A stretch of DNA of 52,154 nucleotides from Oscillospiraceae bacterium (lineage in GTDB: Bacteria; Bacillota; Clostridia; Oscillospirales; Ruminococcaceae). The stretch covers positions 1 to 52,154 of the forward strand of contig JAIKWY010000078.1 in the NCBI GenBank assembly GCA_024684395.1, given 5' to 3'. A program made the position numbers and the translations under genes. Positions 1 through 51,618 of the stretch are shown one piece after another (the stretch's first letter is position 1; every line of letters begins with the position of its first letter). The notes under the pieces are model-generated. The model was not told where the DNA came from and made no database searches. It worked only from the letters and a program-made list of their open reading frames with translations.

Positions 1-50
1 CCTCCCCCTTTGGGGGAGGTGCCGCCGAACGGCGGCGGAGGGGGGGCGCC
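1..50 (-). repeat. Partial copy of GC-rich hairpin repeat (family B)
   Basis: Reverse-complement copy of the element seen at 6735-6821 and 37772-37865. It holds the CCTCCCCC/GGGGGAGG hairpin and the GCCGCC/GGCGGC hairpin, and runs off the left edge of the window. Confidence 0.75.
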
Positions 51-4479: not shown

Positions 4480-4750
4480 ATTTCGCTCACTGCGGTGAGC
4501 GACCAGAGGGCTTTGCCCTCTGGACTCCCACAAACTTTTTTTACGAAAAAAAAGTTTGATCAAAAAAACGATCTTGATGCACCTTTGTCTGAAACTCCGA
4601 AGCACTGCATTGGAGCATCCGAACGGATGCGACGTGCTAAGAAAAAACAGCTTTGCCCCCTTTGCGTAAGCATTGGGGGCAAGCGATAATCAAAGTAGTG
4701 CAGTAGCAAGCTGCGAAGCAACCCGCCAGTGCGGGCTCCGCACCTCCCCG
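4480..4750. repeat. Structured repeat family A, copy 1 (full length)
   Basis: About 270 bp shared with 49875-50139; the right-hand 170 bp is also shared with 9745-9914. Plus-strand order: TCGCTCAC-TGCG-GTGAGCGA hairpin; CCAGAGGGC/GCCCTCTGG hairpin; A/T hairpin around AAACTTTTTTT; ACGATCTTGATGCACC; GCATCC-GAAC-GGATGC hairpin; TTGCCCCC/GGGGGCAA hairpin with inner GTAA loop; GTGCA pairing back to TGCAC; conserved tail GCGAAGCAACC and GGGCTCC. It ends 11 nt from the stop codon of the GH13 gene. Read on the minus strand, the G/C hairpin followed by a T-run is a good intrinsic terminator. Confidence 0.9.
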
Positions 4751-6688
4751 CTACGGGTGGATGTGGGATTCGTGCTCGGGGCGGGGACATTCGTCCTGCT
4801 CCACGGGGGATTCGCCGGTCTGCGCACGGCAGACGATCACGGCATAGTCAAACGGTGCCAGATAGACCGTATCGCCCTCGATCGTACCACGCTCCACACC
4901 GGACAGGCGATAGTTCTCCTTCCACGGGCAGAACTGTACACGCTGCTCATGCTCGGAGCGGTTGACATAGACCTGTACCGCAAAGCCCGAGCCTTCGTGC
5001 GTTCTGGCAAAGGCGATGACATCGTCCTGTGCCGGGAGGAAGCTCATCCGACCCGTGCGGAATACCCGGTACTCCTTCCGGATGCGGGAAAGCTCCTTGT
5101 GGAAGTCGATCAGCTCCTGATCCTCGTGTCCCCACGGGTAGCAGCGGCGGTTGAACGGATCCTTGTAGCCCTGCAAGCCCGCTTCATCGCCGTAGTAGAT
5201 GCACGGCACGCCCGGCAGGAAGAACATGATCGCCGTTGCCGCTTTCAGGCGGGACTTGCCGAGCCAGTATTCATGCTCGTTCAGATAGCGCTCTGCCATC
5301 CAGTCCTTGGATTTGTCATCGCAGCTCTCGCCGCCGAAACGGTTGATCGCACGCTCGATGTCATGCGTCGAAACGAAGTTCATCAGCACATCGACCGTCG
5401 GCTTCGGATAGTTTTCGAGGATGGTCATGATCGCATGACGGAAGTCACGGCTGCGCATGCCCTTGATATAGTTGATGATCGCCTCGCGGAAGGGGTAATT
5501 CATCACAGAATCGAGCTGTGCGCCGAGGAGATAGCGGCGCTTCACGCCGTAAGCCTCCTTGTTGGAAGCATCCTCCCAGACCTCGCCGATGACGATCTTG
5601 TCCTCGCCGTTCTTCTTGACACGGGTGCGCAGATTGTCGAGGAAGGCATCCGGCAGCTCATCCGCCACGTCAAGACGGAAGCCTGCCACGCCCATATTCA
5701 GCCAGTAATCGAGCACGCCGCCCTCGCCACAGATGAACTGGGTATACTCCTTGTTGTTCTCCTGCACGTTCGGGAGGGTGTCAATGCCCCACCACGCCTC
5801 GTACTCATCCGGGAAATGATAGAACGAGTACCAGGGGTAGTATTCGCTGTCCTTCGACTGGTAGGCGCCGATACTGTCATAGCGGCCGTACTTGTTGAAA
5901 TAGATGCTGTCTGCGCCGGTATGCGAGAACACGCCGTCCAGAATAATGGAGATGCCGAGCTTTCTGGCGTCTGCACACAGCGTTTTCAGATCCTCGTTCG
6001 TGCCGAGGAGCGGGTCTACCTTGCGGTAGTTGGCGGTGTTGTAGCGGTGGTTCTCGTGGCTCTCGAAGATCGGGTTCAGGTAGATGCATGTCACACCCAG
6101 ATCCTTCAGATAGGGCAGCTTCTCCCGGATACCTTCGAGGTCGCCGCCGAAATAGTCATTGTTCCAGACATGCCCGTGTGCATCCGGTCTGTGCCAGGGC
6201 GTACCGCCCCAGTCATCCCGCAGGACTCTGCCGTCCGGGATATTCTCATGCACCTTGCCGCTCTTGGCAAAGCGATCCGGGAAGATTTGGTACATCACGC
6301 CGCCCTTGAGGAAATCGGGCGTGTCAAAATCCTCATCATAGACGGTCAGCTGGAACAGGTCGCCGTCGTTGAGGTTGCCGATATGTCCGGCAGTCTTCTT
6401 GATGAAAAAGCGCTCCCGGTTCTGCGTGTAGGCGAAATAATAGTAGTGGACACCGACATACTTCGGGATATAGCCGCAGCCCCAGACCTTGCAGTCCTCC
6501 TCTTCGCTGATGGGGAACATGCTGATGAAGCGCTCCCGGAAGCCCGTGCGGAACAGCACCAGACAGGGCGCATAATCCGGCGTGACCTCCTTGGGCAGGC
6601 GGATCTGGAAATAGCAGACCTTACCCTTCCGGATGGCGCCAAAAGGTGATTTATAGCTTGTATCCCAACTGTCATACAGATGGCTCAT
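4751..6688 (-). CDS. GH13 alpha-glucan hydrolase (neopullulanase/cyclomaltodextrinase-like)
   Basis: A 645-residue alpha-amylase family enzyme without a signal peptide, so probably intracellular and acting on imported maltodextrins or glycogen. An N-terminal beta domain (about 1-125) precedes the barrel. GH13 regions are visible: I DGVFSHTG, II GFRLDVADE (nucleophile Asp), III EVWED (acid/base Glu), IV FVSTHD (transition-state Asp). A C-terminal beta domain follows. The long upstream frame to 6871 crosses a repeat; AGGAGTG before the ATG at 6688 fixes the start. It lies downstream of glycogen phosphorylase on the same strand but is separated by a terminator; no convincing promoter was found in the gap. 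The specificity within GH13 is inferred. Confidence 0.9.
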   Translation of the reverse strand: MSHLYDSWDTSYKSPFGAIRKGKVCYFQIRLPKEVTPDYAPCLVLFRTGFRERFISMFPISEEEDCKVWGCGYIPKYVGVHYYYFAYTQNRERFFIKKTAGHIGNLNDGDLFQLTVYDEDFDTPDFLKGGVMYQIFPDRFAKSGKVHENIPDGRVLRDDWGGTPWHRPDAHGHVWNNDYFGGDLEGIREKLPYLKDLGVTCIYLNPIFESHENHRYNTANYRKVDPLLGTNEDLKTLCADARKLGISIILDGVFSHTGADSIYFNKYGRYDSIGAYQSKDSEYYPWYSFYHFPDEYEAWWGIDTLPNVQENNKEYTQFICGEGGVLDYWLNMGVAGFRLDVADELPDAFLDNLRTRVKKNGEDKIVIGEVWEDASNKEAYGVKRRYLLGAQLDSVMNYPFREAIINYIKGMRSRDFRHAIMTILENYPKPTVDVLMNFVSTHDIERAINRFGGESCDDKSKDWMAERYLNEHEYWLGKSRLKAATAIMFFLPGVPCIYYGDEAGLQGYKDPFNRRCYPWGHEDQELIDFHKELSRIRKEYRVFRTGRMSFLPAQDDVIAFARTHEGSGFAVQVYVNRSEHEQRVQFCPWKENYRLSGVERGTIEGDTVYLAPFDYAVIVCRAQTGESPVEQDECPRPEHESHIHP

Positions 6689-6734
6689 ACGATCACTCCT
6701 ATGAAAAGACTGTTTTCTCGGACAGGCGTGCTGC

Positions 6735-6821
6735 AAGCCGCCCCCTCCGCCGCCGTTCGGCGGCACCTCCCCCAAAGGGGGAGGATTATGGGGGTGCTGC
6801 GCACCCTCAACCCGCTTTTTC
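6735..6821 (+). repeat. GC-rich hairpin repeat family B, full copy
   Basis: AAGCCGCCCCC, then a GCCGCC-GTTC-GGCGGC hairpin, a CCTCCCCC-AAA-GGGGGAGG hairpin, a GGGTGC-TGC-GCACCC hairpin and the tail CCCGCTTTTTC. It is nearly identical to 37772-37865. On the plus strand the last hairpin plus T-run resembles a terminator. Confidence 0.85.
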
Positions 6822-6904
6822 AAAAATCGAGGAGGAAAAGCACTGCACAAATGATAGCCCATGCTATCCAAAGATATTCAGACTATCATCCCCGTACTAT
6901 AAGA

Positions 6905-9744: not shown

Positions 9745-9914
9745 AACTGCACCGCACCATTGTCTGAAGCCCCGGAAAACTGCATTGGAGCAGCTTTAGC
9801 TGCGATGTGCCAAGAAAAAACAACGATGCCCCCTTTGCGAAGCATTGGGGGCATGTGGTCGTTGAAAAGGTGCACCATAATCTGCGAAGCAACCTGCCCG
9901 TGAGGGCTCCCCAC
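9745..9914. repeat. Structured repeat family A, copy 2 (short)
   Basis: Contains only the right-hand 170 bp of the element: GCAGC-TTTA-GCTGC hairpin, GATG(T)GCCAAGAAAAAAC, ATGCCCCC/GGGGGCAT hairpin with inner TGC-GAA-GCA, then GCGAAGCAACCTGCC and GGGCTCC. It ends 4 nt from the stop codon of the membrane protein gene. The minus strand reads as a terminator (G/C hairpin then GTTGTTTTTTCTT). Confidence 0.85.
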
Positions 9915-12287
9915 TTAGTGCCAGAAAATCAAGGCATCTTCGGCGGCATCGTAGAGGTTCGGGCAGTGGCGGAGGAGGGTGCAGTCACGCAGACCGATCA
10001 TCAGCAGCCAGATCATGCCCATTGTTACGAACAGGCTCAGGATGACGATACCGTAGCGATAGAGATGGCGCTTGACATCCACCGTGCGCAGCATCACGAC
10101 CACGGCGCCGATCGTCAGGAGCGGCAGGATGTCGGTGACATAGCGCTGGTTCACGCCGCCGATGCAGAGATCCATCCATGCCAGCAGTACCGGCACGGCG
10201 AAGCATACCACGAGCGCCGCACGCTTCTGGAGCGTGGTGATGCCGAGGGTCGTCTGACGGCTGCCACGACGCAGCGCCAGCGGCAGCAGCAACGTGCCGA
10301 GAAGAAGCGCCGGCATCGACAGTGCGCCGTAGGTCGCATCGGTGTAGAGATAGCGCCCATAATTGCGCAGAGACGAATTGATCGGCTCGAAGAACGGGAA
10401 CGAGGTGCGGGGGAACGGCGCTTGCAGCAGATACTGCTTGACCGCCGCCGGGAGCAGACCGAGCCGCAGCGTGTTGGCATGGACATCGCTGACGGTGAGC
10501 TGGTAGGCTGCACCGAAATCGAACGGCGAGCCGAAACGTGCATTGTTATAGGCAAACAGCCCGCAGATGCCTGCAAGCAGCGGGAGCGTGAAGCTGCAAA
10601 GCTGTGCCAGCTTGGAAGTGAGCGGTCGGGATTTCCGCAGGAGGATGCCGAGGAAGAACGGCACCAGCACTGCCGTGCTGATCGCCATCGTGGGGCGGGC
10701 GCCTGCACAGAGTGCCATCGAAAGTCCGCTGCACGCCAGCAGGATGCAGCGCACCACCGGCTTCTTTGCCCTGCACGCCCAGAATCCGAGCCAGAGCGTC
10801 AGCAGCAGGAAGCACATGCCGGAGGATACCGCAACATAGTACTTGTCCGTGTATTGCAGACAGGTATAGACCGAGGAGGTGCAGACCGCCGTGGGAAGGC
10901 TCAGCAGGAGCAGCAGGAGATTCGGCTGCTTCACGAGCAGACGGACGGCTGCAAGGATCGTCAGACAGAGCAGCAGCGACGAGAGCGTTGCAAAGACATC
11001 GACAGCGATCGGTACGGTCGGGAGCTTGCCTGTCAGGAAATAGACCGGATAATACAGCACAAGGATCGGTGTCACGCCGAAATAGCTGTAGTATTTGCCG
11101 TTTTTATAGGCGGTATCCCAGCGGTATTCCACGCTTGTCGCCTTGCGCTCGCTGTTGTCATAGACATTTTCGAGGACCGCAAGTCCGGGATCGGCGTCAA
11201 TATCGAGATAGACCTGCCCCTTGCGGAAGGCGTCAAAGGTCTGGGTGTAGGGGTCGGCGAAGGTGATGTCCTCACCCTGCTTGTACTCCTGGAGCTCCTC
11301 GCCCGGCGCCCAGAAGCAGACGGTGGACACCACACAGAGCGCCGTGACGATGCAGACCGTCACACGCTGCGGGATGGTGCGGGTGTAGCGCATCTCCCAG
11401 AGACGGAAGTCGAGCACCGCTATCAGCAGCGCACCGCAGAAGAGCAGCAGCAGCCAGCGCAGCGCCGAGAACCGGAACGGCAGCGCAGACACGGCAGCGA
11501 CTTCATGCACGGTCACTTCCTCCGTCACGGAGCCGATGTGCAGCAAAAGCCCGTGAACGCTGCCATAGGGGTCGATCGAGAACGTCGCATCATAGTCGAA
11601 GCCCATTGTGAACTTGTCCGAGGTGACAGAGTAGCTGTACCGGAAATTGTCATCCTTCATGTCGAGCCAGGTGTGGACAAGGCGTGCGCCCTTCTCCTGC
11701 TCCTGATCCATGCGGACGATGATGCCGTGGGTGCCGTCCGGGATGCCGGACAGTTCAAGCTCTGCATCGCCGTTGATGATGTACTCGCCGTTCATCTCCG
11801 TGACATGCTGCACCTCGCCCTCCGTGGGCTTGGGGCTGACAGTCAGGACAGTGGCAGTTTTGTCGGATGTGAAGCTCTTGCCGTTGAACAGGCAGACCTC
11901 GAGACAGAGCAGCACCGCCAGCCATGCACCTAAATGCAGCAGAAAGCGCCCTACGTTTTTCTTCTGCGGCATGAAGCAGCAGACAAATGCCGCCGCAAAC
12001 GGGATCACCGCCGTCAGAAGCAGCGCATAGGCAGGGATCTGGCTTTCTTCCGTGTACATGCCGAGCTTCACCAGCAGATGGAGCAGCACGAACAGGACGA
12101 CCTCCACACCCGCCGTCACGCCGGTGATGCGCAGGAGCATGTTCCCGGTGATCTTGCCGGATGCAAGGCGATCCAGCGGCTTCGGAAGGCTGACCTCCGG
12201 CGGGTTTTTGACATGGGTGAGCCAGTAATTTCCGAATGCATAAAACAATACAGCCGCAATGAGCGGCGTCAGAACAGATAACAGCAT
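9915..12287 (-). CDS. Large polytopic membrane protein, GT-C-like
   Basis: A 790-residue integral membrane protein with a dozen or more hydrophobic segments: four near the N-terminus, a soluble extracytoplasmic beta-rich part (about 125-265), and the rest from about 275 onward. The motif YNNARFGSPFDFG resembles the loop seen in bacterial lipid-linked-sugar (GT-C type) mannosyl/arabinosyl transferases, so a role in glycosylating a surface polymer or protein is the best guess, not proven. AAAGGAG lies 29 nt upstream of the ATG and is separated from it by a perfect GCACCGG/CCGGTGC hairpin. It has its own promoter at 12341-12369, and termination is provided by repeat family A. Confidence 0.8.
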   Translation of the reverse strand: MLLSVLTPLIAAVLFYAFGNYWLTHVKNPPEVSLPKPLDRLASGKITGNMLLRITGVTAGVEVVLFVLLHLLVKLGMYTEESQIPAYALLLTAVIPFAAAFVCCFMPQKKNVGRFLLHLGAWLAVLLCLEVCLFNGKSFTSDKTATVLTVSPKPTEGEVQHVTEMNGEYIINGDAELELSGIPDGTHGIIVRMDQEQEKGARLVHTWLDMKDDNFRYSYSVTSDKFTMGFDYDATFSIDPYGSVHGLLLHIGSVTEEVTVHEVAAVSALPFRFSALRWLLLLFCGALLIAVLDFRLWEMRYTRTIPQRVTVCIVTALCVVSTVCFWAPGEELQEYKQGEDITFADPYTQTFDAFRKGQVYLDIDADPGLAVLENVYDNSERKATSVEYRWDTAYKNGKYYSYFGVTPILVLYYPVYFLTGKLPTVPIAVDVFATLSSLLLCLTILAAVRLLVKQPNLLLLLLSLPTAVCTSSVYTCLQYTDKYYVAVSSGMCFLLLTLWLGFWACRAKKPVVRCILLACSGLSMALCAGARPTMAISTAVLVPFFLGILLRKSRPLTSKLAQLCSFTLPLLAGICGLFAYNNARFGSPFDFGAAYQLTVSDVHANTLRLGLLPAAVKQYLLQAPFPRTSFPFFEPINSSLRNYGRYLYTDATYGALSMPALLLGTLLLPLALRRGSRQTTLGITTLQKRAALVVCFAVPVLLAWMDLCIGGVNQRYVTDILPLLTIGAVVVMLRTVDVKRHLYRYGIVILSLFVTMGMIWLLMIGLRDCTLLRHCPNLYDAAEDALIFWH

Positions 12288-49874: not shown

Positions 49875-50139
49875 ATTTCGCTCACTGCGGTGAGCGACCA
49901 AGGGACTCTGTCCCTTGGAACCCTGCAAACTTTTTTTGCGAAAAAAAAGTTTGATCAAAAAAACGATCTTGATGCACCTTTGTCTTAACCCCCGAAGCAC
50001 TGCATTGGAGCAGCCGCATGGCTGCGATGTCTGAAAAAGCACAACGATGCCCCCTTCGCCGCAAGGCGTTGGGGGCATGTGGTAAACGAAGCAGTGCAGT
50101 AACAAATTGCGAAGCAACCTGCCTGCCCGGGCTCCGGGC
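49875..50139. repeat. Structured repeat family A, copy 3 (full length)
   Basis: Matches 4480-4750 throughout. Changed stems stay paired: CCAAGGGAC/GTCCCTTGG instead of CCAGAGGGC/GCCCTCTGG; GCAGCC-GCAT-GGCTGC instead of GCATCC/GGATGC; ATGCCCCC/GGGGGCAT instead of TTGCCCCC/GGGGGCAA, with an inner CGCC-GCAA-GGCG. It ends 4 nt from the guaB stop codon. Confidence 0.92.

Positions 50140-51618
<1,479 letters not shown>

Follow-up and report, generated by a model that had tools for sequence, protein, structure and literature searches.

Three copies of a hairpin-rich repeat are found in the window, i.e., in the complete analysed stretch of 52,154 nucleotides from an Oscillospiraceae contig, and each of them lies at the 3' end of a gene. 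The hairpin stems differ between the copies in such a way that pairing is kept. Here, we ask what these compensatory changes mean: do they reflect selection on a folded RNA, as the preliminary description of the locus had proposed, or a process that acts on the DNA itself? The window belongs to a 4.2-Mb draft genome, termed G000; its nearest sibling is termed G005, and all other G numbers denote further genomes of the genus.

A covariance model built on 26 copies in the genome, including the three of the window, yields exactly three matches in the window, all on the minus strand and with E 1e-44 or better (Table 1). The three copies are thus real, and the compensatory hairpin changes named earlier are indeed present. 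What had been described as a single family A, however, comprises two repeats, a core of approximately 165 bp and a separate repeat A of approximately 96 bp. When the genome is searched with the 265-bp stretch, some places match only about positions 1-97 and others only about 98-265, and hence we treat the two as separate families. Two of the three window cores adjoin repeat A. The core also lies nearer to the stop codon than the 4-11 nt originally given, namely at 0 nt for the first host gene, which we take to be guaB in line with the earlier naming, at 0 nt for the presumed membrane protein gene and at 7 nt for the GH13 gene. The orthologous site of the third copy is filled in G005 as well; its host gene has no Pfam match within the 497-aa part scanned. 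Repeat A is palindromic and present in several species of the genus, and G002 carries many copies with equal scores against it. A further dispersed repeat (CCGCCGTTCGGCGGC...CCCCCAAAGGGGG) occupies window positions 1-44, at the contig end, and about 6736-6790, and has many matches in relatives.

Table 1. Positions of the repeat copies, their hairpins and their host genes within the window.
Feature	Position	Strand	Remarks
Core element copy 1	49973..50139	-	0 nt from guaB stop; covariance model 180.1 bits, E 1e-46
guaB (presumed; IMP dehydrogenase), host gene of core copy 1	50140..51612	-	stop TAA 50140-50142
Hairpin P1 (GCCCGGAGCCCGGGC)	50125..50139	-	starts at first base after guaB stop codon
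Hairpin P2 (TTGCTTCGCAA)	50107..50117	-	read from sequence; outside RNAalifold consensus
Hairpin P3 (ATGCCCCC...GGGGGCAT)	50047..50078	-	
Hairpin P4 (GCAGCC/GGCTGC)	50010..50025	-	
Repeat A beside core copy 1	49875..49970	.	adjoins distal core end; solo copies in genome
Core element copy 2	4578..4743	-	7 nt after GH13 stop; covariance model 183.7 bits
Repeat A beside core copy 2	4480..4575	.	
GH13 alpha-amylase-family host gene of core copy 2	4751..6871	-	Pfam PF00128; ends ...HIHP, stop TAG; ORF start putative
Core element copy 3	9753..9914	-	0 nt after stop of 790-aa ORF; without repeat A; 172.7 bits
Host gene of core copy 3 (790-aa ORF)	9915..12287	-	membrane protein according to the preliminary description

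Read on the gene strand, the core has the following order: stop codon, P1, P2, P3, sometimes a T-run, P4, and a tail ending near GGTGCA. P1 is a 6-bp palindrome with a 3-nt loop (GCnnGGAGCCCnnGC or GCAGCGTGACGCTGC), P2 is centred around TTGCTTCGCAA, P3 follows the pattern [AT]TGCCCCC...GGGGGC[AT], and the arms of P4 read GCAGC/GCTGC or GCATCC/GGATGC. RNAalifold, applied to 26 copies, recovers P1, P3 and P4 with 20 pairs, 12 of them with double-side changes, and leaves P2 out of the consensus. The internal loop of P3 keeps its A-rich sides on the sense strand in 68 of the 69 copies that could be parsed by pattern (113 examined) and is inverted in one. In the G019 copies L154-L163, the P1-P3-P4 skeleton is kept, while the sequences of P2 and P4 are very different. 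The long-range pairing TGCAC/GTGCA, previously thought to close the core, was discarded: with 410 Watson-Crick, 12 G-T, 50 A-C and 59 other cells and 9 double-side changes, this helix is without covariation support. The window core together with repeat A folds better than shuffled sequences on both strands (z -6.4 and -5.0), and folding energy therefore does not choose a strand.

How widely is the core distributed? In G000, the covariance model gives about 62 core matches at E<=1e-7, a count based on 150 scored candidates out of 1684 from a first look, in which two neighbouring pairs of matches overlap or touch. At E<=0.001, core matches occur in 14 of the 38 genus genomes, G000 included, with 60 in G005, 28 in G027, 22 in G013, 15 in G019, 12 in G011, 8 in G029 and 7 in G023. 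The P1 pattern matches 63 times in G000 and is likewise present in 14 of the 38 genomes, compared to a single match of the reversed control pattern in all of them; P1 also occurs with partners other than the core. A tree of GroEL and GuaB (32 species, 25 of them with both genes, 1032 columns; six of the 38 genomes lie outside, and nodes elsewhere are weak) contains a fully supported clade of 15 species without P1 match, and of the remaining species 11 out of 17 carry P1, several of them with only one to three matches. Among the GTDB species genomes, a scan with an exact pattern matched G005 only, in a set that may lack close relatives of the window. Viral contigs held no match to one exact pattern, and the phage and plasmid collections no core match. 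The element is present in part of a single Oscillospirales genus, and no such repeat is described in Ruminococcus or relatives among the literature matches listed.

The placement relative to genes was evaluated on 112 copies, i.e., 56 of the 62 in G000 (E<=1e-7), 42 of the 60 in G005 (E<=0.001) and a further 14 from another three genomes; one partial match, L123 (1-122), was dropped, and genes were called with a purpose-made ORF caller that missed a few gene ends. The upstream gene has the same sense as the core in 46 of 56 copies in G000 and in 30 of 42 in G005, and 25 and 21 copies, respectively, start between -1 and +4 nt from its stop codon. This amounts to 46 of 98 copies in the two genomes. 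When copies are slid within their gaps, 5.4 abutting copies are expected against 43 of 63 observed, with a maximum of 13 in 10,000 rounds, and the placement is thus far beyond chance. The location at gene 3' ends, mostly in same-sense orientation, is borne out by these data. The statement that copies always abut a stop codon is near enough true within the window; genome-wide it holds for the above fraction, and abutment is not uniform across the genus (0 of 8 copies in G013, 0 of 3 in G029, 2 of 3 in G011). Loci with the P1 pattern, taken from several genomes, abut a stop in 7 of 26 cases. A stop triplet serving as target independently of a gene was considered and rejected: such a triplet precedes the core in 8 of the 52 non-abutting copies, and at least three of these are probably missed gene ends.

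Same-sense location and tight abutment speak for a conserved 3'-UTR RNA regulator, i.e., a sense RNA that would influence mRNA stability or the termination of translation or transcription and whose stems would be kept by pairing selection. The A-rich P3 loop kept on the sense strand points in the same direction, but the host genes are unrelated. Among 20 scanned host proteins, matches include cpn60, L,D-transpeptidase, an RF-1-type release factor, phosphoglycerate kinase, homoserine dehydrogenase and GH13, and five are without Pfam match; a dockerin domain lies beside one core copy, and other dockerins were read from the sequence, which hints at a cellulolytic bacterium, perhaps related to Ruminococcus. 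In three copies (L141, L031 and L105), P1 is missing, yet the remainder still abuts the stop.

The minus strand of the core had also been read as an intrinsic terminator. P3 is a GC-rich hairpin, and a T-run of at least five follows it in 24 of the 46 abutting copies, which suits both a terminator and an RNA regulator, while its absence from the other 22 weighs against the latter. A strict scan for a hairpin plus T-run is positive inside only 2 of the 46 copies and within 180 nt downstream of 6 of the 46, so what is left of the terminator reading is a weak role. That the copies are nothing but ordinary intrinsic terminators, alike by appearance alone, is highly improbable; besides the strict scan, approximately 60 nt past P3 are conserved, and in most relatives the same genes carry different hairpin-like sequences, most of them short, as judged by eye.

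In the alignment of 113 copies, 97.0% of the cells pair and 18 of 20 pairs show double changes; none of 500 shuffles reaches any of five measures, which places the covariation above chance. In a separate APC-corrected G-test, the top ranks go to pairs within P1, P3 and P4, but linked non-pairs around P1 (e.g., columns 7-17) rank high as well, and these mark module types that are exchanged as a whole.

Where selection acts on the pairing of an RNA, G-U pairs should arise as intermediates and some of them should persist, whereas a palindrome repaired at the DNA level need not show them. The core stems show 288 double-side versus 16 single-side changes, and G-T (18) is as rare as A-C (21) among 2205 cells. 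As the sole RNA control, we used 30 SRP RNAs from the genus, 22 of them distinct, in which 20 single changes stand against 11 double changes and 141 G-T against 0 A-C in 900 cells; 118 of these 141 fall at positions with G-T as the habitual pair, and the 23 elsewhere again compare to 0 A-C. Repeat A resembles the core: its 15 copies give 49 double and 0 single changes, with no G-T and one A-C among 431 cells. Double changes without an excess of G-T are strand-symmetric, as expected for DNA palindromes subject to template switching or block gene conversion. Covariation therefore does not by itself establish an RNA function, contrary to what had been concluded from it, and the paired changes look like an outcome of DNA copying. 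Selection for very stable stems could also account for the scarcity of G-U. Thus, the RNA regulator draws support from the high share of paired cells, but the lack of a G-U excess and the near absence of single-side changes, so unlike SRP RNA, make it rather improbable. For an antisense RNA, which had been considered too, the sequence analyses gave nothing in favour.

Turnover can be followed in orthologous copies that occupy the same gene ends in G000 and G005. In 15 of 20 such pairs, at least one of six modules is less than 80% identical, and in five pairs none is; altogether, this concerns 39 of 120 modules. For 28 of these replaced modules, a paralogue of at least 90% identity exists in one of the two genomes. 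The remaining 11 are without a close paralogue, a point against the explanation at the DNA level. In the pair L015/L114, P1 is 53% identical and the other modules are 91-100% identical; in L024/L122, one P1 base pair differs, with both arms changed. Compensatory changes of several bases are a reported result of template switching (available text of PMC8794818), which is also reported to even the arms of inverted repeats and invert their spacers (available text of PMC8604942). The inverted P3 apex of copy L013, one among 113, is a product of the type described in the latter source for switching between inverted repeats.

The C-terminus of GuaB, ...NYSVQI, is conserved in relatives (28 loci), and by eye no full core follows the guaB stop in the 27 other loci. 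G002 has a P1-like palindrome after this stop, and related palindromes lie at a greater distance from it in G027 and G033. In G013 (L175), an apparent insertion with an open reading frame begins shortly past the guaB stop, at the place of the repeat in G000. The groEL gene of G000, G005 and G019 has the core behind its stop codon, and that of G027, G002 and G009 has a P1-type palindrome at 0-5 nt; neither is seen by eye in 24 of the 29 loci compared, a set that leaves out G013, whose match lacks the gene end, and to which G005, read separately, does not belong. This retention in several species, with P1 changed yet paired, is a further argument for an RNA regulator. Farther 3' of groEL, G000 carries a second, P1-less core between repeat-A sequences and G005 one repeat A, a difference that would fit recombination between A repeats.

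Two sites differ between the siblings in opposite ways. The GH13 gene has the core in G000 and lacks it in G005, G013 and G019; conversely, a second site, at window position ~116, is filled in G005 and empty in G000, G013, G019 and G002. The GH13 3' ends were read in two of seven relatives (G013 and G019) and the second site in three of seven (G013, G019 and G002); some empty-site alignments are poor and were interpreted together with BLAST coordinates. The most parsimonious history is therefore a single gain per sibling. The GH13 protein ends in HIHP in G000 and in HVHPL in G005, i.e., it is one residue shorter in G000, where TAG is followed by CGGGGAG as in other copies that start TAG-CGGGGAG. 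This fits a stop codon that arrived with the module. Few empty sites were available for recognising a target-site duplication, and none was clean. In a different arrangement, a core in reverse orientation (L094, G000) takes up the space from a stop codon to a ribosome-binding site; G005 (L222) has unrelated hairpins there.

The presence of the core at a site in one sibling and its absence from that site in the other support the earlier suggestion of a possible small mobile element. They invite the reading of a MITE-like small transposon, moved in trans by a putative enzyme that recognises gene ends; the many unrelated sites and the precise left boundary at the stop codon would agree with it. 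Terminal inverted repeats were, however, not seen by eye, and the candidate pair TGCAC/GTGCA does not covary. Stop triplets apart from gene ends are as rare as given above, no Y1 transposase was found in G000 or in the 77% complete G005, and phage and plasmid matches are lacking. We consider a MITE-like transposon improbable.

The most plausible explanation, and in our judgement a fairly probable one, is a REP/BIME-like mosaic palindromic repeat, restricted to a clade, in which template switching and gene conversion keep the palindromes perfect as DNA. Existing copies of such a repeat would be the source of new ones, through recombination or through template switching during replication, without a dedicated Y1 transposase. 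Hairpin arms would be re-copied from each other and modules exchanged between copies, and both arms would thereby change at once. Insertions would survive where the reading frame stays intact, with the stop codon as the favoured join, and the stop codon may sometimes travel with the copy. If transcribed, the hairpin array would form the 3' tail of the mRNA. E. coli REPs within 15 nt of the stop are reported to slow termination, and proximity to the stop to affect translation (available text of PMC12306157, citing Liang 2015). By analogy, P1 lies within the footprint of a terminating ribosome and could slow termination, P3 and P4 would hinder 3' exonucleases, and a T-run, in copies that have one, could contribute weak termination; such effects on ribosomes or mRNA are plausible. 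Some observations do not sit easily with this explanation. The same-sense bias and the strand-asymmetric A-rich loop of P3 run counter to a purely DNA-level view, i.e., the strand matters somewhere, and the placement at groEL in several species is not readily explained by random insertion.

As a conjecture that we regard as rather improbable, recombination may install palindromic modules exactly at stop codons, sometimes together with the stop, and many unrelated housekeeping 3' ends may thus evolve together. In a wider context, the repeat is a natural example, on a large scale, of strong pairing covariation that probably does not stem from selection at the RNA level. Counting G-T versus A-C is a simple strand test that can be applied to other candidate structured RNAs. 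The findings raise the question how a repeat reaches the exact stop codons of many genes, and how, in a Gram-positive gut bacterium, a hairpin at this place affects ribosomes during termination.

Several known systems share features with the core. Intrinsic terminators and the structured 3'-UTR RNAs of Rfam resemble it in placing hairpins after a stop codon; no Rfam 15 family reaches its gathering score at the element, and the matches listed, far below threshold, overlap repeat A. MITEs such as RUP, Correia and CIR are, in the available text of PMC2229807, small non-coding intergenic repeats, and the core is alike in this and in its site-specific presence and absence. It differs in that no terminal inverted repeats or constant target were noticed by eye, and in that it evolves block-wise as a mosaic in place. 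The maintenance of hairpins by template switching offers a likeness in one-step double changes of stems and in spacer inversion; the cases described in the available text of PMC8794818 and PMC8604942 concern RNA genes and yeast coding DNA, whereas it would act on a family of dispersed bacterial repeats here.

The closest likeness is to REP/BIME elements, which are also dispersed, high-copy extragenic palindromes with mosaic modules, mostly downstream of genes. GTAG REPs are associated with RAYT, a Y1 tyrosine transposase. A RAYT-driven spread was rejected: PF01797 is absent from G000 and G005, the two richest genomes (G005 is 77% complete), and it occurs in two of the 38 genus genomes, G032 and G021, in a search that was positive in 5 of 14 control genomes. 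REPs have an unpaired GTAG or CGTC tag at one end (available text of PMC3733652), whereas the core has no general tag of this kind; of 112 copies, 4 have GTAG near the foot of P1 and 1 has CGTC. Since these marks, tag and RAYT, are lacking, we do not file the core as a REP. It also differs in size, with approximately 165 nt and several hairpins against 20-40 bp in a REP, and in the many copies located at 0 nt from a stop codon. It is a new palindromic repeat of mosaic build, restricted to one clade and akin to REP/BIME elements in the way it works.
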